From the NCBI GenBank assembly GCA_021810905.1, contig JAJZQH010000002.1, positions 124,001 through 188,000 of the forward strand: a stretch of DNA of 64,000 nucleotides, given 5' to 3'. Of the stretch, positions 35,681 to 44,660 are shown in pieces; within the stretch, counting starts at the first letter, position 1; each line of letters opens with the position of its first letter. This stretch comes from a bacterium. Lineage in GTDB: Bacteria > UBA10199 > 2-02-FULL-44-16 > JAAZCA01. Under the pieces are notes generated by a model. That model searched no databases. It was not told the DNA's origin and saw only the letters and a program-made list of their open reading frames with translations. The position numbers and the translations under genes were made by a program.

Positions 35681-35789
35681 TTTGTTCGATCTGCCAAAAA
35701 AATGACGATGCTTTTGCCGTTTATCAATTTGATCGGTTTGAAGCAAATGCTTTTCCCGTAATTTCAACGACGTTGCCTTTTTGAAATCA

Positions 35790-35806
35790 TGGCACGCCCC
35801 TTGCTT
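35790..35806 (+). promoter_or_regulatory. sigma-54 promoter (-24/-12)
   Basis: TGGCACGCCCCTTGCTT matches the sigma-54 consensus TGGCAC-N5-TTGCT exactly. It is 50 bp before the start of the Cys-rich exported protein. The rest of the gene-free gap (35681-35789) is AT-rich and could hold activator sites; no specific site was recognised. Confidence 0.85.
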
Positions 35807-35855
35807 ATTTTATAGACGCTGGATTCTGATCCACGACAACCAGGAAGGGGGATGT

Positions 35856-37358
35856 ATGAGAAACCGGATAATAGCCTTGATGCTCATCGCAATGCTCTAC
35901 CCGTTCATCGGCGGACAGAAGGGATGCGGAGGGCAATTGCGCAGCGGAGAAGAGGCCGCGCTGGAAGAGGGCGCGGTTCAAACCGATGTGCTTGCCGAAA
36001 CTCAGCCCCAGATCGATACGGCGATTCCTCCTTCTGACGTCGCGCAAGCAGATAAAGGACCGACGGACATCATCTGCCAGCCCGGCATTCCCCCGCCAAA
36101 GGAGCGCGTGGCGCCGTCATGCGCGGACTTCCTGCCGCCGGGTGTTGCTGCGACCATGGTCGCGGACCTGACGCGCGTCAACAAAGAGATGCTGGACAAG
36201 ATGGACTGGTGGAAACAGCTCGCAGCCGGAGTGGACCCGCTGGGTCTCGCCTCGCGCGAAGTGGGCGGCCTCGATAAGCTCGCATCGATCTGCATGGCGT
36301 GCGCGATCAAGCAGGCACCACCTGCTCTGATGGGCGCGCCTGCTGGAGCTGGTGCAGAGGCGCCGATGACTACGATGATGGCGAAGGAGAAAGAACGCTT
36401 CAACATCGACGCCTGCGAGAAGTTCATCGTGATCTACGGTTACAAAGGCGGAATGAACGTCGGCGTACACAGCCTTGCAAAGGACGTGAATGCAGACGCG
36501 GACGGCATCTATCAGATCAAGGATTATGCAGCCGCTGAATCCGGCGATTTCCTATTCATAGGATCAAAGGACAAGGAATACGTGAAAGCGGCGCTTGCCG
36601 GACCGCACGAATACGAACTCAAGGACATGGCCCTCTTCATGCCCGCTACCGTAGCGTTTGGAATCAAGGCAGAGGCCATACAGTCAGGCTTCAGGACTCC
36701 GCTCTTTGACGCGTTCAAGGTACTGCCGCTACCGTTCGACGCGTTCAAGGACGTAGCCGGCGTGACTTTCCTGGGCGCCATCGATCTGCAGAAGCTCATG
36801 ACCGTGTCCGCGGCGATCTACGACAAGGATATGCAGGCCCAGGCGCGCTCCGTGCTGGCGATCGCGTATGAGGAGTTCAAGAACCTGCTGGATATCGAGA
36901 ACAAGGAAAGCTTTGTGATAGCGGATAAAGAAAAGATAATGAAAATGAAAGAGGGCACGTTCATCGATCAGAGCGGCACCGTGATGGAAACAAAGACCAT
37001 CGGCACGTCAGGTGGATATCAGGCAACGACGCCGATTTACAAAGATACGGGAAAAACGATCGGTGAATTGCCTGTGGACATATCCAAAATTCATCCGCAG
37101 GAGATAGGCAAGCTCGTGAGCCTGTGCGGCAATGGGGTCAAAGATGCGGGTGAGCTATGTGGCGAGCCAGGATTATGGCCGTGCGGTCCAGGTACGCAAT
37201 GCAAGAATTGCAGAGAATGCGTCCCGATATGCGGAGATGGAAAATACGTTACGGGCGAGGAATGCGATCAATCTGCACCCGATGGCAATAAATACTGCCC
37301 CATCAATTCTTCATGCGTTGACTGTAAATGCAAACGCAATTTCTTGCAGCTCCAGTAA
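35856..37358 (+). CDS. exported protein with C-terminal DUF4215-type Cys-rich repeats
   Basis: 500 aa. A signal peptide (about 1-21) is followed by GGQKGCGG, so a lipid anchor is possible but the lipobox is poor. The long middle region (about 60-420) is not recognised. The C-terminus has two Cys-rich units, CGNGVKDAGELCGEPG and CGDGKYVTGEECDQS, of the kind common on myxobacterial surface proteins. The start at 35856 has AAGGGGGA before it; the overlapping ATG at 35852 is in another frame. Transcription is probably from the sigma-54 promoter at 35790, so it should depend on an enhancer-binding activator not seen in the window. Confidence 0.75.
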   Translation: MRNRIIALMLIAMLYPFIGGQKGCGGQLRSGEEAALEEGAVQTDVLAETQPQIDTAIPPSDVAQADKGPTDIICQPGIPPPKERVAPSCADFLPPGVAATMVADLTRVNKEMLDKMDWWKQLAAGVDPLGLASREVGGLDKLASICMACAIKQAPPALMGAPAGAGAEAPMTTMMAKEKERFNIDACEKFIVIYGYKGGMNVGVHSLAKDVNADADGIYQIKDYAAAESGDFLFIGSKDKEYVKAALAGPHEYELKDMALFMPATVAFGIKAEAIQSGFRTPLFDAFKVLPLPFDAFKDVAGVTFLGAIDLQKLMTVSAAIYDKDMQAQARSVLAIAYEEFKNLLDIENKESFVIADKEKIMKMKEGTFIDQSGTVMETKTIGTSGGYQATTPIYKDTGKTIGELPVDISKIHPQEIGKLVSLCGNGVKDAGELCGEPGLWPCGPGTQCKNCRECVPICGDGKYVTGEECDQSAPDGNKYCPINSSCVDCKCKRNFLQLQ

Positions 37359-37931: not shown

Positions 37932-38051
37932 GCGTGGCGTCCACCCTCCCGCCGAACGAACTGGAACGCATTGGCTCATGCTTCATCGTTAGCCATAGAA
38001 GATGAGAATAATTCCGTGTCGACTCGTTCGCCGGGAGGGTGGACGCCACGC
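37932..38051 (+). repeat. structured repeat, family J copy 1 (J1)
   Basis: A 120-bp element: arms 37932-37959 and 38024-38051 pair in 27 of 28 positions, with a single C-C mismatch at the eighth pair from the inside. They enclose a 64-nt core (37960-38023) with GGAACGC, GGC, GTTAG and GTGTCGAC. A core stem TGGCT/AGCCA is possible. It lies between dtd and the NosR-like gene. Confidence 0.85.
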
Positions 38052-38113
38052 GTCCTCCTTGGCGCGGAGCTGCGCTTCTTGACACTGTTTTCACCCTAGA
38101 GCATATTCCGCGC

Positions 38114-39304
38114 ATGTTCGGGGGGAGAAGAATCGCCATAGCATTGGTAGGCTGCTTCGCTGCGCTGTTCTCCGTCATTGCGGCGCGCGCCGCGGTTCTA
38201 CCTTCGTCGCAGGATCTCCTCTCGATGGTTCCTGGCGCAGCCTCGTTTGAGCACGAGATCAGCCCAACGGATTTCTACAGGATGAAGGACGCGTCCGGCC
38301 GCGTCATCGGGGCAGCGTTTGTCACGAGCAACATACCCCCGCAGGTGAGCGGCTATGGCGGAGAGCTCGACGTGCTCGTGGGCATCGATCCGTCTGGAGC
38401 GATCACGGGGATCAAGATACTCTCGCACAACGAAACGCCGCAGATCATGCAGAAGCTCCTCGGTTCAGGGTTCCTCTCGCGTTTCACGGGACACAAGGCA
38501 GGCGATAACTTCGCCGACATAGAGGCGGTGAGCGGAGCTACCATATCTTCGCAGGCTATCGTCGACGATATCAAGACCTCAGCGGCCGCTGTGGCCGCGG
38601 CGCTCGCGGGCAAGGGCGGCGAGGCGGGCGGATATGTTTCCGCGAGGACGCTGCCGTGGCTGCACGCCGGTGCTGCGATTATAATGATAGGGCTATGCAT
38701 CGCCTCTGTGCTGCGTCCGTCCGTGAAAAAATTGCGGGCAATTGCGCTCGTCTTCTCGGTAATCGTAATCGGCCTGTGGCTTAATACGCCGATCACCATA
38801 GGCGACATAGTCGATGTAAGAAATTTCGCCGTATCATGGGCAGCAAAACTCCCGCTCGCGATACTCATGGCATTTGCCCTCGCGGCGTCGTTCTGGCGCG
38901 GAAATCTCTATTGCTCCTATATCTGTCCGTTCGGAGCGCTGCAGCAGGGCGCGGCTGAGTTGATGCCCGCGAAGTGCCGCCCGTCGGATCGCATGCAGCG
39001 CTCGCTTGGCTGGCTTCGCTGGTTTGTGGCGATCGCGACTATCTACGCGATAGCGGGGATGGGCAGTTACGCGTTCAGGGAGATCGAGCCGTTCGCGCTA
39101 TGCTTCTCGCGAGATCCCGACTTAACGACCATCATTCAGACCGCTACCGTGCTCGCGGCAGCCCTCTTTGTCCGGAGGATATGGTGCAGATTTTTCTGCC
39201 CGACAGGCCTGGTGCTGGATCTGATTGGACAGCTCGGCTGCAAGGCGCGTCACGCGGCGCTGAAATTCGCAAGGAGGCGGCATGGTCCGTGTCCGGCTCC
39301 ATAA
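38114..39304 (+). CDS. NosR/RnfG-like FMN-binding and 4Fe-4S membrane protein
   Basis: 396 aa. A signal or anchor helix is followed by an FMN-binding domain (about 40-165) with the flavinylation site region EAVSGATISSQAIV, where FMN is normally attached to Thr by ApbE. About five transmembrane helices follow, with two polyferredoxin-type clusters CSYICPFGALQQG and CRFFCPTGLVLDLIG of the NapH/NosR type. The classic 4Fe-4S ferredoxin tail of NosR is missing. It probably moves electrons across the membrane. No Shine-Dalgarno sequence is visible before the ATG. Confidence 0.82.
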   Translation: MFGGRRIAIALVGCFAALFSVIAARAAVLPSSQDLLSMVPGAASFEHEISPTDFYRMKDASGRVIGAAFVTSNIPPQVSGYGGELDVLVGIDPSGAITGIKILSHNETPQIMQKLLGSGFLSRFTGHKAGDNFADIEAVSGATISSQAIVDDIKTSAAAVAAALAGKGGEAGGYVSARTLPWLHAGAAIIMIGLCIASVLRPSVKKLRAIALVFSVIVIGLWLNTPITIGDIVDVRNFAVSWAAKLPLAILMAFALAASFWRGNLYCSYICPFGALQQGAAELMPAKCRPSDRMQRSLGWLRWFVAIATIYAIAGMGSYAFREIEPFALCFSRDPDLTTIIQTATVLAAALFVRRIWCRFFCPTGLVLDLIGQLGCKARHAALKFARRRHGPCPAP

Positions 39305-39557
39305 TATCCTCATGGCTATAGCAATCGGCGCGGTGCTCGGCGTTACGGCGTGGTCGCTCCACGCCCGCGAACCGGATCTCATTGCGCCCGGCGGAGTCAT
39401 CGCGCCGCAGCCGCAAAAACCGACATCACAAACAAAAAACACGGAGCCCACAAACGAGTCCCGAGTCCCGAATCCCGAGTCCCGATTAACAGAGCAGATG
39501 ATCGAGCGCGGCGAGCTCTCGAAGCATCCTGCCCGATTTTATAAGAAAGAGCCGTAG
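39282..39557 (+). CDS. small membrane-anchored protein with word-repeat linker
   Basis: 91 aa. The ATG follows AAGGAGGCGGC and overlaps the end of the NosR-like gene by 23 nt. One N-terminal membrane helix (ILMAIAIGAVLGVTAW) precedes a Pro/Thr-rich linker and a charged tail. The linker NESRVPNPESRL is encoded by a tandem word repeat (GAGTCCCGAATCCCGAGTCC, about 39456-39487). This resembles one arm of the intergenic word-repeat palindromes captured inside a coding sequence. Likely an accessory of the NosR-like protein; function unknown. Confidence 0.65.
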   Translation: MVRVRLHNILMAIAIGAVLGVTAWSLHAREPDLIAPGGVIAPQPQKPTSQTKNTEPTNESRVPNPESRLTEQMIERGELSKHPARFYKKEP

Positions 39558-39564
39558 GTGCTGG

Positions 39565-39717
39565 TTGCAGTTCGATGATCAGAAACGCTTTGTCCGCGCC
39601 TAGAGGAGGCCGGATACAGCAGCCGTATTATAGTACCGGCCGACGTAAGGCAGGCGGCTCGCCGGCGTTTGAGGCGAGACGCCGGCGGACAAAGCGTTTC
39701 TGATCATCGAACTGCAA
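39565..39717. repeat. long inverted repeat, family K copy 2
   Basis: Perfect 33-bp arms (39565-39597 and 39685-39717) enclose an 87-nt core that includes CGCCGGCGTTTGAGGCG (39660-39676). The same 17-mer occurs in inverse orientation in copy 3 (59756-59772), preceded in both by GGCAGRCG. It fills the gap between the small membrane protein gene and the radical SAM gene and ends 14 bp before the latter's ATG. Confidence 0.85.
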
Positions 39718-39731
39718 GAGAGAGAACCTCA

Positions 39732-40709
39732 ATGAGCGCAGATAATATCAGATGCGAGCTCTGTTTCCGCTTCTGCTCCATTCCGCCCGGCGGTCGAGGC
39801 AATTGCAGGGTTCGTTACAATTTGAACGGAGAGCTGGTGAGTCTGGTTTACGGCAAGCCGTGCGCCGTGCATATCGATCCGATAGAGAAGAAGCCGATGT
39901 TTCATTTTTTGCCAGGCACACGCGCGTTCTCGATCGCCACCGCGGGCTGCAACGGTCATTGCCAGTTTTGCCAGAACTGGGAGATCAGTCAGCGCGAACC
40001 CGAGGAGACGGATAATATAGACATGCCCCCTGCCGCAGTGGTCGAGAACGCGATAAAGTCGGGATGTCGATCTGTAGCATATACGTATACCGATCCCAGT
40101 ATATTTTACGAATACACGTACGACTCAGCGGTCATCGCCAGGAAGAAGGGAATAAAAAACGTGCTCGTGACAGCGGGTTTTCTCAACGAAAAGCCGCTGC
40201 GCGAGCTGGCGCGATACGCGGATGCAGCGAACCTTGATCTCAAGGGAAACGCGGAGTTCTATAATAAGGTCGTGCTCGCGGAACTAAAGCCGGTGCTCGA
40301 TTATCTTCGCATCGCGCGCGAAGAGGGGATATTCATCGAGCTCACCAACCTCATCGTGCCGACGCTCAACGACAAGAAAGAGGATCTCGAGTGGTTGATA
40401 AAAACGATACTCGACAGCGCAGGTCCTGATGTACCGCTGCACTTCTCCAGATTTTTTCCGATGTATAAATTGACAAACCTCTATCCAACTCCTGCCGAGA
40501 CGCTGATGGATGCGGCGCACATGGCGGAGGATATGGGTATCAATTACGTCTATGTGGGAAACCTCCCGGCAGGGGAGTTCGAGAACACGCGATGTCCAAA
40601 GTGCAAGGAAACGGTGATAACAAGGCGCGGCTACATGACGCCTGAGATAAAGCTCGTGGACGGAAAGTGCCCGAAGTGCGGCGAAAAGATTCCCGGGGTA
40701 TGGAGGTGA
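39732..40709 (+). CDS. amrS: AmmeMemoRadiSam system radical SAM enzyme (AmrS)
   Basis: 325 aa radical SAM protein related to pyruvate-formate-lyase activases. The cluster-binding motif is CNGHCQFC (Cys73, Cys77, Cys80). An N-terminal Cys set (CELCFRFC, then Cys25) and a C-terminal zinc-ribbon-like pair (CPKCKE, CPKCGE) are typical of the family. The start at 39732 is chosen because the Cys set begins there; longer frames run into the family K repeat. It heads a cluster with a small membrane protein and Memo-AMMECR1. The reaction of this conserved trio is not established. Confidence 0.9.
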   Translation: MSADNIRCELCFRFCSIPPGGRGNCRVRYNLNGELVSLVYGKPCAVHIDPIEKKPMFHFLPGTRAFSIATAGCNGHCQFCQNWEISQREPEETDNIDMPPAAVVENAIKSGCRSVAYTYTDPSIFYEYTYDSAVIARKKGIKNVLVTAGFLNEKPLRELARYADAANLDLKGNAEFYNKVVLAELKPVLDYLRIAREEGIFIELTNLIVPTLNDKKEDLEWLIKTILDSAGPDVPLHFSRFFPMYKLTNLYPTPAETLMDAAHMAEDMGINYVYVGNLPAGEFENTRCPKCKETVITRRGYMTPEIKLVDGKCPKCGEKIPGVWR

Positions 40710-40711
40710 AG

Positions 40712-40867
40712 ATGAAGATCACGCGCAAAGAGTTCGGCCTCGCAGTGCTCCTGGGGCTCGGCGCAATGTTTCTCACGCGGATGTTCGGAAAATTTCGCGG
40801 TACGAAATCATCGCGTCCGCATGAAGCCGCGAGACATTGGCGCAGAGGAGGTCAGCTGGCTGGGTGA
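40712..40867 (+). CDS. small membrane protein of the AmmeMemoRadiSam cluster
   Basis: 51 aa. It begins 2 bp after the amrS stop with ATG preceded by GGAGGTGAAG, a strong site. A short basic start (KITRKEF) is followed by one hydrophobic helix (GLAVLLGLGAMFLTRMFG) and a basic tail. The spacing implies translation coupled to amrS. It could anchor the enzyme at the membrane; that is inference only. Confidence 0.65.
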   Translation: MKITRKEFGLAVLLGLGAMFLTRMFGKFRGTKSSRPHEAARHWRRGGQLAG

Positions 40868-40887
40868 AGAGAACCCATCTCATAAAT

Positions 40888-40968
40888 TCCCCTCCTTTGT
40901 AAGGAGGGGTAGGGGAGGTAGATCCTGCGCGATCTACCCCACCCAGCCTCCCCTTACAAAGGGGAGGA
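40888..40968. repeat. inverted repeat, family D copy 2
   Basis: CCCTCCTTTGTAAGGAGGGG on the left faces CTCCCCTTACAAAGGGGAGG on the right; the inner part pairs GGTAGATC with GATCTACC. Same architecture as copy 1 (26549-26638), with independent base changes in the left arm. It ends just before the ribosome-binding site of the Memo-AMMECR1 gene. Confidence 0.8.
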
Positions 40969-40984
40969 GTATAAGGAGGGACGA

Positions 40985-42445
40985 ATGAAGCGCATTGTTG
41001 TTGTTGTCATGATTTTTCTGGCTATCGCTATCGCTGCACAGCAGGCCGCGTGCAAGAAATCTGCGCGCGAGGCGCCCAAGGCCGCGACTATTCAGGCGCC
41101 AGCGGTTGCAGGCCAGTTCTATCCCGGTTCGCGCGAGGAACTTTCGCGCATCGTGGACGCGGATCTGGCCAGGGCACCGCTCAAGCGTTTTGATGGCGAT
41201 ATCATCGGTCTCATCGTTCCGCACGCTGGCTATCAGTATTCCGGCAAGATTGCGGCAGCCGCCTTCAAACAGGTGGAAGGCAAATCGTATAAGCGCGTTG
41301 TGGTGATGGGACTCTCGCACCACGTGCCGGTCTACGGCGCCGCGCTCTCAACTCGCGACGCGTACCGCACACCTCTCGGCGATATACCGATCGATACGGA
41401 GGCGGTGAAGTCGATACTCAAAAATTATTCCTGGGCTAACGATGACCAGAGGGTTTACGAGGTCGAGCATTCGCTGGAAGTCGAACTGCCGTTTATCCAG
41501 ACGGCACTCAAGGACTTCAAACTCGTGCCGATCATAATCGGCGCGAACGATCCGATGTTGCTGGACAAGATCGCCGTCGCGCTGGACTCCATGTTCCCTG
41601 GCGACGACACGCTCTTCGTAGCAAGCACGGACCTCTCTCATTACCACCCCTATAATGAGGCTACCGAACTCGATCGCCGCACCATAGGTTTTATCACGGA
41701 TTCAAAGCTCGACGATTATGCTGATGCGGTTGCAGCGGAAAAGGCTCAGCTCTGCGGCTCGTCTCCGGTATACGTCATGAAGAAGATCGCACAGCTGCGC
41801 GGGGCAAAACTCAGCCTCATACAATATGCAAACTCAGGAGACACCACGGGCGACCGCTCGCGCGTGGTCGGCTATGGGGCGATTGCAGCCGTCGTACCTG
41901 AAAAAGCGGGCTCGCTTGGCGATACGCAAAAGAAGGAGTTGATCAAGCTCGCCCGCGCAACCGTGGACGCGCACGTCGCAGGGAAGAAGCTGCCGCCATT
42001 GCCCGACGACCCGGCGCTCAAATCGCCTGGCGCGGCATTTGTGACGCTCAAGAAACATGGCGAGCTCAGGGGCTGCATCGGCCAGATCATCGCGCAGGGC
42101 CCGCTCGATCGCACGGTGCAGGACATGGCCGTGGCTGCTTCGTCGCAGGATCCGCGGTTTCCTCCGGTGCGCCCTGAAGAACTGAAGGATATAGATATCG
42201 AAATATCTGCGCTTACCCCGCCGGAGCCGCTTGTCGATCCGCTTGCGGTGCGCGTGGGCACCGACGGGCTAATCATAGAGAAGGGGATGTACCGCGGCGT
42301 GCTCCTGCCTCAGGTTCCAGCGGAGCAGGGCTGGAACAAAACGCAGTACCTGGAAGGGATCGCGCGCAAAGCAGGTCTCCCGCCGGATGCGTGGAAAGAT
42401 GCAAAGCTCATGCGCTTCCAGGCGATAGTGTTCGGAGAAAAGTGA
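40985..42445 (+). CDS. exported Memo-AMMECR1 fusion (AmmeMemoRadiSam proteins B and A)
   Basis: 486 aa. A signal peptide (about 1-22) ends in AAQQAACKK, which looks like a lipoprotein signal although Gln at -3 is atypical. The Memo domain (about 38-305) has VAGQFYPG, IVPHAGYQYSG, GLSHHVPVYGA and STDLSHYHPY. The AMMECR1 domain (about 318-484) has GAAFVTLKKHGELRGCIGQI and IDIEISALTPPE. Memo and AMMECR1 are usually separate cytoplasmic proteins. Here they are fused and appear to be exported, while the partner radical SAM enzyme upstream has no export signal. The ATG follows AAGGAGGGACG. Confidence 0.9.
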   Translation: MKRIVVVVMIFLAIAIAAQQAACKKSAREAPKAATIQAPAVAGQFYPGSREELSRIVDADLARAPLKRFDGDIIGLIVPHAGYQYSGKIAAAAFKQVEGKSYKRVVVMGLSHHVPVYGAALSTRDAYRTPLGDIPIDTEAVKSILKNYSWANDDQRVYEVEHSLEVELPFIQTALKDFKLVPIIIGANDPMLLDKIAVALDSMFPGDDTLFVASTDLSHYHPYNEATELDRRTIGFITDSKLDDYADAVAAEKAQLCGSSPVYVMKKIAQLRGAKLSLIQYANSGDTTGDRSRVVGYGAIAAVVPEKAGSLGDTQKKELIKLARATVDAHVAGKKLPPLPDDPALKSPGAAFVTLKKHGELRGCIGQIIAQGPLDRTVQDMAVAASSQDPRFPPVRPEELKDIDIEISALTPPEPLVDPLAVRVGTDGLIIEKGMYRGVLLPQVPAEQGWNKTQYLEGIARKAGLPPDAWKDAKLMRFQAIVFGEK

Positions 42446-42458
42446 AGAGCGCTGCTGG

Positions 42459-44660
42459 TCACTGAAGGATCAGGATGACGGCGATAGCACAGGCGAGCGC
42501 AAGTGCGGCCATCACCAGCGAGGCCCACAGCCCGAGCAGCGGTATCGCTATTGCGCTGGCAATCATGGCGCCCACCGCAGCACCCCAGAGGTCTGCATTC
42601 TGCACGATTCCGGCTACGGTGCCTATGCCCAGCCCTTCTGCGGCGAGCGACTTTGCCGTTCGCTGATAGATAAATCCTGCGATAAGTCCCATGCCCAGAT
42701 TCGCAGCTATGGCGCTTACGTCCGCGACGATGAAGAGCAACAATGTATATACTGCGCATATCGCAAGAGGAGCGATGAGCGTCCATCTCCCTTTCGTGTA
42801 ACGATCCAATGCGACCGCAGTCCATGCTCCGGCGCCTGCGCCAACCATGAATGCGGTTATTATGAAACCGAGTCTCCAGACGAGGATGCCCACCGACATC
42901 TGGTAATGCACCAGCAACACCACCTCATAGACGATGGAAGCAAAGCCCGTGGAGAAGAGAGCCCACGTCGCTGCGATTCGCACTTTGATCGCGCGGCTTC
43001 TTCCGGCGATAGCCGATAGGGCCATCATCAATATGATGAGCGCTGCCGCCTTCCATGGATTCAGTAATTCGCCCGCCCTGGCGAGCAGGGGCATGCCTTC
43101 TCCCGCGCGCCTCTCCCAGAGGAGAAGTCCGTTGAAATACGCACGCGGCTTGAGGTCCGTATCGATTGAGGCGCCTGCTGCTGCGCTCGCGATCTCTTTT
43201 TGCGCTGATTCGATGCGCTCGGGGTAGATGCCGGCCAAGACCACTGAACGCAGGAAATCCGCGCGAATATGGCGCTCGTCCAGCCTTCTCGCCAGTTCAG
43301 AGGGATCCGCGGTGAGCGCACCGCTCTCGGCAGAAGCGAGGTAATAGTAGCGATCGAGAGGGAGCAGCATGACGTGGGGAAATACAGACCCTAGCGTGGC
43401 CTCGATACCGCCTAGTAGTCGAACGCGTTCCTTGCTCATAGAATTCGATGTATCCATGAGCGCCAGGCATAAAACTCCTCCGGGCTTAAGCGCCTGCGCC
43501 GCTTCCTCAAAAAACTCCTTCGTATAGTAGCGGTCTGCGGCTGCGGTGTCCGGCTCACTCACGTTCACGATCACCACATCGAAGCAGGCCGTGGCGCAAC
43601 GCCCCGGTACACCCTCACGCACGAATTTTCTGCCGTCCGTGTGATGGATCTCGACCCATGCCGGAAGATCGTCGAGGTGCGAAGGCATCTCCGTTCTCTC
43701 GAGCAGCGTGACGTCGGGATCGAGCCGCGAAAAATAAGCGCGGTCAAGCCCGAGCCCGCGCCACCTGTCCAACACGCCTGAGATTCCGCCTTCTATCATG
43801 AGCACGTGCTTTGGAGCGGGGTGCTCGAGCAGGGGGAGCAGGGAGATCGACTCGTAGGTCTCGGGAAGCGGCAGCGAGAACAAAGGGCGGTTGTCCGAGA
43901 AGAGCGTGCGCTCGCCGCGATTGTCGGTGACCATGAGCGTCGCTATCAGGGAATCGCGGTGTACGGCCGGATTATAACCTCGCCATTGCGCCGAGGTCAG
44001 CCGGGCATCTAAAGCGTACGCCTGCCACATGGCAGGGATGAGCGCTGCCAGCACAGCGATCGATGCGAATCTGAAGACGCGCCTTGGAATGGTCGCGGCA
44101 ACGCACGCTGCAAGCATGGCGGAAGCGGCAAATGATGACTGAAGAGCTGTAGTATGCTGCAACACGAAGAGCGATACGATCAGTCCTCCGATTCCGGAAC
44201 CGATCGCGTCGAAGAGATAGGCTCTTGCGATATCAGATGCCTGATTTGTAGCCGGCAGCTTGCATGCTAACGTGAAGGATACGCCGATTGCGAGACCCAG
44301 GGGCGCAGAGATGACTATCGCAGAGATGAGCGCGGTTTCCAGTCCCACCATCGCCGGCGCGGCCAGCCCAAGCGCCGGCTTTACAAAGTACGTAGCGACG
44401 ATCGTGGCCGGCATTAGCAGGGCCATTGCGATGAGCCAGAGCGCCGTGGAGCGCCAGGCGTCGCGCAGGCGGTCGGCGAATTTTCCCGCGATGAGGTTGC
44501 CCAGCCCCGAGAACCCGAGCCAGCCCGCGAGCACTCCGCCGCTTATGAGTTCGTTGCCGCCGAAACAGACGATCAAACGCCGCATGATGAGAATCTGCGC
44601 CGCCATCGCCGCAAAGCCCATGGCGATAAACAGAACGTGCAGCCTGAAGGAAGCCTTCAT
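42459..44660 (-). CDS. membrane-embedded spermidine-synthase-like protein
   Basis: 733 aa. The N-terminal membrane region (about 5-215, six to seven helices) and the C-terminal membrane region (about 535-733, six to seven helices) flank a spermidine-synthase-like Rossmann domain (about 250-500). The domain includes HVLMIEGGISGVLDRW, DVTLLERTEM, VEIHHTDGRKFV, DVVIVNVSEPDTAAADRYYT and LKPGGVLCLAL. The GGxSG motif is retained, but the aminopropyl-acceptor residues cannot be judged by eye. Polyamine synthesis is uncertain, since many fused homologues have unknown reactions. It is convergent with the Memo-AMMECR1 gene, 13 bp apart. Confidence 0.8.
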   Translation of the reverse strand: MKASFRLHVLFIAMGFAAMAAQILIMRRLIVCFGGNELISGGVLAGWLGFSGLGNLIAGKFADRLRDAWRSTALWLIAMALLMPATIVATYFVKPALGLAAPAMVGLETALISAIVISAPLGLAIGVSFTLACKLPATNQASDIARAYLFDAIGSGIGGLIVSLFVLQHTTALQSSFAASAMLAACVAATIPRRVFRFASIAVLAALIPAMWQAYALDARLTSAQWRGYNPAVHRDSLIATLMVTDNRGERTLFSDNRPLFSLPLPETYESISLLPLLEHPAPKHVLMIEGGISGVLDRWRGLGLDRAYFSRLDPDVTLLERTEMPSHLDDLPAWVEIHHTDGRKFVREGVPGRCATACFDVVIVNVSEPDTAAADRYYTKEFFEEAAQALKPGGVLCLALMDTSNSMSKERVRLLGGIEATLGSVFPHVMLLPLDRYYYLASAESGALTADPSELARRLDERHIRADFLRSVVLAGIYPERIESAQKEIASAAAGASIDTDLKPRAYFNGLLLWERRAGEGMPLLARAGELLNPWKAAALIILMMALSAIAGRSRAIKVRIAATWALFSTGFASIVYEVVLLVHYQMSVGILVWRLGFIITAFMVGAGAGAWTAVALDRYTKGRWTLIAPLAICAVYTLLLFIVADVSAIAANLGMGLIAGFIYQRTAKSLAAEGLGIGTVAGIVQNADLWGAAVGAMIASAIAIPLLGLWASLVMAALALACAIAVILILQ

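Follow-up and report, generated by a model that had tools for sequence, protein, structure and literature searches.

Introduction

The AmmeMemoRadiSam trio of AMMECR1, Memo and the radical SAM enzyme AmrS is widespread, and its human members, MEMO1 and AMMECR1, are both disease-linked. To the best of our knowledge, the trio has no known reaction and has always been assumed to act inside the cell; likewise, we know of no radical SAM enzyme that works outside the membrane. The locus described here lies in a 64,000 nt stretch of bacterial DNA (the window, i.e. the whole stretch that was analysed). It shares with the described trio all three domains (TIGR04335, TIGR04336 and TIGR04337), each above its curated cut-off and with the active-site residues kept. 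It differs in its export signals, in a putatively split AmrS anchor, in a putative membrane electron carrier and a SpeE-like protein as neighbours, and in that its genome has a further set, without signals.

Four other described systems resemble parts of the locus. The NapH/NosR-like flavinylated systems (PMC8238504) likewise combine an FMN-binding domain at the N-terminus with a PF12801 Fe-S membrane domain; the partners named for them in the passages cited here are reductases and oxidases, whereas the partner in the window is a radical SAM system, and the terms 'radical SAM' and 'AMMECR1' are absent from the main text of that paper (Meheust 2021). In dual Sec-Tat proteins (Tooke 2017, PMC5449189), a polytopic part is succeeded by a twin arginine (RR), a weakly hydrophobic stretch and a cofactor domain, an arrangement that, to judge from the relevant passages, recurs after the NapH-like part in two genomes discussed below (G159 and G164), where the cofactor domain is instead AmrS; 'radical SAM' is absent from the main text of that paper also. 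Tat hitchhiker complexes, as presented in passages of PMC10924467, would explain a signal carried by a small partner, although the small peptide of the window has RK in place of RR and a complex is here only proposed. None of the passages concerned in these three papers treats AmrS. Spermidine synthase (SpeE) shares a PF01564 domain match with a protein of the window that also has PDB relatives by sequence and that differs from it in having about 11 membrane segments and a replaced catalytic Asp.

A literature search of partial coverage retrieved no exported AmmeMemoRadiSam system and no periplasmic radical SAM enzyme; Burroughs 2019 (JBC), which reportedly treats Memo contexts, could mention exported forms.

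Organization of the locus

The genes of interest begin on the forward strand with a gene for an FMN-binding and NapH/NosR-like Fe-S membrane protein (38039-39304), as judged from PF04205, PF12801, its membrane segments and its motifs. A frame for a 91-residue single-helix protein follows (39282-39557), and then amrS, which runs from its ATG at 39732 to its stop at 40709 and is assigned from TIGR04337 and from trees. Only 2 nt past that stop, the ATG of a 51-residue single-helix peptide is found at 40712 (stop 40867), preceded by a GGAGG (40702-40706) that lies within the 3' end of amrS. The Memo-AMMECR1 fusion (40985-42445, same strand) comes next, and the SpeE-like gene (42459-44660) is on the opposite strand. 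All three elements that the original prediction had placed here, namely amrS, the 51-residue frame and a signal-bearing fusion, are thus present, and the operon is also found in genome G003.

Several repeats accompany these genes. A perfect 33-nt inverted repeat (arms 39565-39597 and 39685-39717, spacer 87 nt), present as a single copy within the window, lies between the 91-residue gene and amrS, and an imperfect palindrome (40883-40973) separates the 51-residue gene from the fusion; the 21-nt core of the latter, CCCCTCCTTTGTAAGGAGGGG, recurs next to the 51-residue gene of G008 (L111) and elsewhere in the genome of the window (L007). A short direct repeat of the CGAGTCCCGAGTCC type (39455-39482) is located inside the coding sequence of the 91-residue gene. 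Further upstream, positions 35781-37358 encode a 525-residue protein, for which no Pfam match was obtained and whose C-terminal part is rich in Cys (CGNGVKDAGELC..., CGDGKYVTGEECD).

A second Memo, AMMECR1 and AmrS are encoded on three other contigs of the same genome, none of them with a signal. Among the 46 genomes of the phylum, an end-to-end Memo-AMMECR1 fusion is present in six, and two AmrS above the cut-off occur only in the genome of the window (G000), G003, G008 and G039, all of them among those six. Genomes with both copies have, as a rule, one AmrS of each type. The locus therefore appears to be a second, duplicated AmmeMemoRadiSam module, separate from the set that the genome has for the cytoplasm and, on the sequence evidence presented below, extracytoplasmic, a reading to which we assign a probability of roughly 0.55.

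The Memo-AMMECR1 fusion

In the fusion, Memo spans residues 39-300 (TIGR04336, 265.4 bits against a cut-off of 26) and AMMECR1 residues 321-483 (TIGR04335, 177.7 bits against 99), both being above the Pfam cut-offs as well. The predicted structure (mean pLDDT 91.3) matches those of human MEMO1 and of archaeal AMMECR1. Residues H80, H112, D216, H219 and C257 of the Memo part and C364, the cysteine of the AMMECR1 RGCIG motif, are invariant in 18/18 fusions, so that the fusion looks active as far as its sequence can tell. The correspondence of these positions to human MEMO1 residues was established in part, and for C244 follows the residue list in PMC7694686.

The chain begins with a Sec-type signal: residues 4-22 are hydrophobic and are followed by Cys23. 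When the N-termini of 25 fused frames were judged by eye for a hydrophobic stretch after the start codon, 16 were of the signal type, eight (L024-L030 and L033) had none, and one (L031) was cut by a contig end. The claim that Memo and AMMECR1 are joined in one chain with an export signal is therefore borne out in the window and in its signal-type relatives; signal-less fusions, which were to count against it, do exist (8/25) and sit in other branches. Export of the window fusion by Sec is near certain from its N-terminus. In the tree, exported Memo does not form one clade and falls into several groups; three rows (L338-L340), the exported fusions of G008, G003 and G000, carried the wrong label in this test.

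The lipoprotein-like cysteine proposed earlier stands in part. Cys23 does close the hydrophobic stretch, as a Cys does in G003 and G008, and both the cysteine in this position and the following residues ('CKK') are shared with G003; however, a PROSITE-type lipobox pattern fails on the N-termini of the window, G003 and G008 alike, and is passed by 18/28 exported Memo N-termini. The fusion is probably tethered to the membrane.

AmrS and its relatives

The AmrS of the window scores 341.6 bits with TIGR04337 (cut-off 220) and has the cluster motif CxxxCxxC in the form CNGHCQFC. The chain begins almost at these first cysteines; the N-terminal segment of its relatives is missing, and no RR signal of its own is present. 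The original prediction had placed the enzyme simply in the cytoplasm, which was a deduction from the missing signal, and the trees speak against it. A quick tree was computed from 111 of the 166 AmrS collected, with the rows of the usual type thinned; the RR-signalled, TM-anchored and split forms, together with an ambiguous row from G112, make up a single set of 33 rows (SH-aLRT 85). In a more careful tree, built from 76 rows, the window enzyme groups with those of G003 and G008 and with the TM-anchored L155 and L156 (99/98), while the other AmrS of the genome (L116, cytoplasmic type) falls in a different part. The exported group needs two changes on this tree, not one, compared with 24.9 in shuffles, and a single exported clade is not rejected (p-AU 0.396). 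This grouping indicates that the window AmrS descends among exported-type enzymes and, as a reading of sequence and tree, makes a location outside the membrane probable.

A strict AxA was found behind the RR region in 17/27 cases. It should be noted that a crude scan for RR missed L149 and L256 (added by eye). The scan also flagged stretches upstream of the start codons of four unsignalled AmrS (L189, L194, L203 and L295); these candidates were dropped when the frames were read.

The chief rival to an external AmrS, close to the first reading of the locus, is a split topology, in which Memo-AMMECR1 is outside, AmrS is held at the inner face by the 91- and 51-residue proteins, and the product is handed across the membrane. 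It would account directly for an AmrS that has no signal, and it leaves the enzyme where S-adenosylmethionine (SAM) and reductant are established to be, i.e. in the cytoplasm. The closest one-chain relatives, L155 and L156, are also compatible with it, as their anchor is Sec-like, very hydrophobic and flanked by K/R at either end, and is of ambiguous orientation. However, the nearest relatives in the tree have anchors or RR signals, many of them with AxA sites, and an electron carrier whose FMN domain is expected to be outside would then be hard to explain. We regard the split topology as unlikely, but serious.

The 91-residue protein and the 51-residue peptide

The 91-residue frame is conserved at the same place in G003 (E 5e-10) and, by eye, in G008, and overlaps the start of amrS in both. 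Its C-terminus, RLTEQMIERGELSKHPARFYKKEP, aligns with KLTEKWVRDHDLSLREAMYYDKLP in the N-terminal extension of the one-chain AmrS L155 (score 43, z 6.6, equalled in 0/1000 shuffles); the G003 copy of the protein, taken alone, gave a weak match to L155 (z 1.64). From this alignment and conservation, we infer that the AmrS anchor became a separate gene and that the enzyme is now split into a core and an anchor. The two would join through the RGELSKHPARFY segment, and the 91-residue anchor would work in trans on the AmrS core.

The idea that the C-terminus of the 51-residue peptide is the detached N-terminus of AmrS could be ruled out (z -0.56 against L155), and it is the 91-residue frame that fits instead. 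For the membrane link, which had been proposed for the small protein next to amrS, the 91-residue protein is a better candidate than the 51-residue peptide.

The peptide is nonetheless a real gene, conserved in G003 and G008, which belong to other genera. A profile built from the frames of the window, G003 and G008 gave E 6.0e-26 for G003 and 2.7e-31 for G008, with all other matches at E > 0.009, so that among the 46 genomes of the phylum the peptide was found in G000, G003 and G008 and in no other (3/46); a separate blastp search, with the frame of the window as query, recovered that of G008 at E 9e-8. The three copies have in common a Tat-like N-terminus, M-x-ITR[RK]-x-FG, followed by a helix and by a C-terminal W...L.G. 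They adjoin the fusion in 3/3 genomes and amrS in 2/3, so that the expected position beside amrS held in G003 and failed in G008, where amrS is about 11 kb away. At the twin-arginine position, G003 and G008 have RR and the window has RK, which speaks against a strong Tat signal in the window copy and is a further point for the split topology. Its role as a Tat escort, dock or scaffold for AmrS is a guess.

Co-occurrence of exported Memo and signalled AmrS

In another phylum (that of L041), AmrS above the cut-off is present in 93/195 genomes. From the 195, 40 were picked by hand so as to cover those with a divergent AmrS and some with the usual kind only; they were searched for Memo, mostly retaining matches with E below about 1e-20, and the N-termini were read. 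RR-signalled AmrS is present in 19 of the 21 genomes with an exported Memo (the exceptions being G048 and G112) and in none of the 17 without (Fisher p 1.2e-8, for hand-picked genomes and uncorrected for kinship). Two more, G213 and G221, have an RR-signalled AmrS and a Memo that is cut, and their Memo was therefore not assigned to either class.

Pooling this set with the six genomes of the window's own phylum and six more gave 33 genomes with an exported Memo, of which 25 have an RR- or TM-signalled AmrS and three the split form; the remaining five (G042, G043, G047, G048 and G112) have neither. L113 in G042 and L112 in G043 are fusions with a signal peptide, and the only AmrS of these genomes is without a signal. 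Conversely, G059 has an RR-signalled AmrS, yet L064, the one Memo observed in it, is without a signal. As to G221 (L252, L266) and G214 (L223, L300), one carries a pair of RR-type AmrS with a SpeE-like gene next to each, and the other a pair of exported fusions.

Putative electron-carrier and SpeE-like neighbours

The product of the gene upstream of amrS matches PF04205 (61.9 bits) and PF12801 (59.6 bits) and has an SGAT motif at residue 165; the gene is found in this position also in G003 and G008. ApbE and TatC are encoded in the genome. The protein thus has the features of a NapH/NosR-like flavinylated carrier, i.e. an FMN_bind domain with SGAT, PF12801, and ApbE in the same genome.

The SpeE-like product matches PF01564 (51.4 bits) and has PDB relatives by sequence. 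A profile for it found a match in 16/34 neighbourhoods of the exported type, six of which were training loci, and in 0/27 of the cytoplasmic type, 16 of these 27 being about 7 kb or longer. When training loci and short neighbourhoods are left aside, the comparison is 10/28 against 0/16 (p 0.007). The catalytic Asp of spermidine synthase belongs to the motif D[ST]xDP, which the PDB relatives also show. This Asp is replaced in 9 of the 11 aligned proteins (VNVSEP in the window), and the SpeE-like protein is therefore not an ordinary aminopropyltransferase.

In G159 and G164, a single open frame encodes SpeE-like, NapH-like, RR motif and AmrS parts in this order, and a lipoprotein fusion follows; in G039, a single chain of SpeE-like and NapH-like parts comes ahead of an RR-signalled AmrS and a Memo-AMMECR1 fusion. 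These natural fusions, taken with the linkage, indicate that SpeE-like protein, NapH-like protein, AmrS and Memo-AMMECR1 belong to one system.

Proposed mechanism

The model proposed here draws on what the sequences show, namely the genes and their signals, the co-occurrence, the gene fusions, the position in the tree and the conserved active-site residues, and from these we infer an AmrS located outside, an anchor acting in trans, and a supply of electrons and SAM. Members of this AmrS paralogue group, mostly with a Tat-type signal, would leave the cytoplasm already folded, with the Fe-S cluster in place; in the window, where the core is split from its 91-residue anchor, the 51-residue peptide may escort the core or dock it. 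Electrons for the Fe-S cluster of AmrS would cross the membrane by way of the FMN/NapH-like protein. Quinol cannot reduce a radical SAM cluster, so that a donor of low potential, for instance ferredoxin, would be needed. The SpeE-like membrane protein may deal with SAM or with the products formed from it, by transport of SAM or removal of 5'-deoxyadenosine. The part of AmrS would then be to produce or repair something on which Memo, through its metal site, and AMMECR1, through Cys364, act outside. The complete scheme, in which a whole radical SAM system operates outside with a Tat-exported AmrS (here split and anchored), a feed from the NosR/NapH-like carrier, the SpeE-like protein and a tethered Memo-AMMECR1, is tentative, and we would place it somewhat below even odds.

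Two further explanations fare worse than the split topology. RR-signalled AmrS and the fusion might be exported remnants without radical SAM activity, with a structural or metal-binding role for instance, as no source of SAM is known outside; we consider this quite improbable, given that exported AmrS keep CxxxCxxC and score well above the TIGR04337 cut-off, and that the site residues of Memo and AMMECR1 are invariant. That the locus is an ordinary AmmeMemoRadiSam set, whose signal and small frames arise from wrongly called starts or by chance, is hardly credible even though Memo-AMMECR1 fusions are common, because the signals and both small frames are conserved in other genera.

Concluding remarks

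A paralogue with fixed partners (carrier, SpeE-like protein and anchor) narrows what the reaction of the AmmeMemoRadiSam trio can need, and the locus is one where a deletion would touch only one AmmeMemoRadiSam copy. Should AmrS indeed work outside, no earlier radical SAM enzyme would, to our knowledge, share that location, and one would have to ask how the exported enzyme obtains SAM and low-potential electrons.
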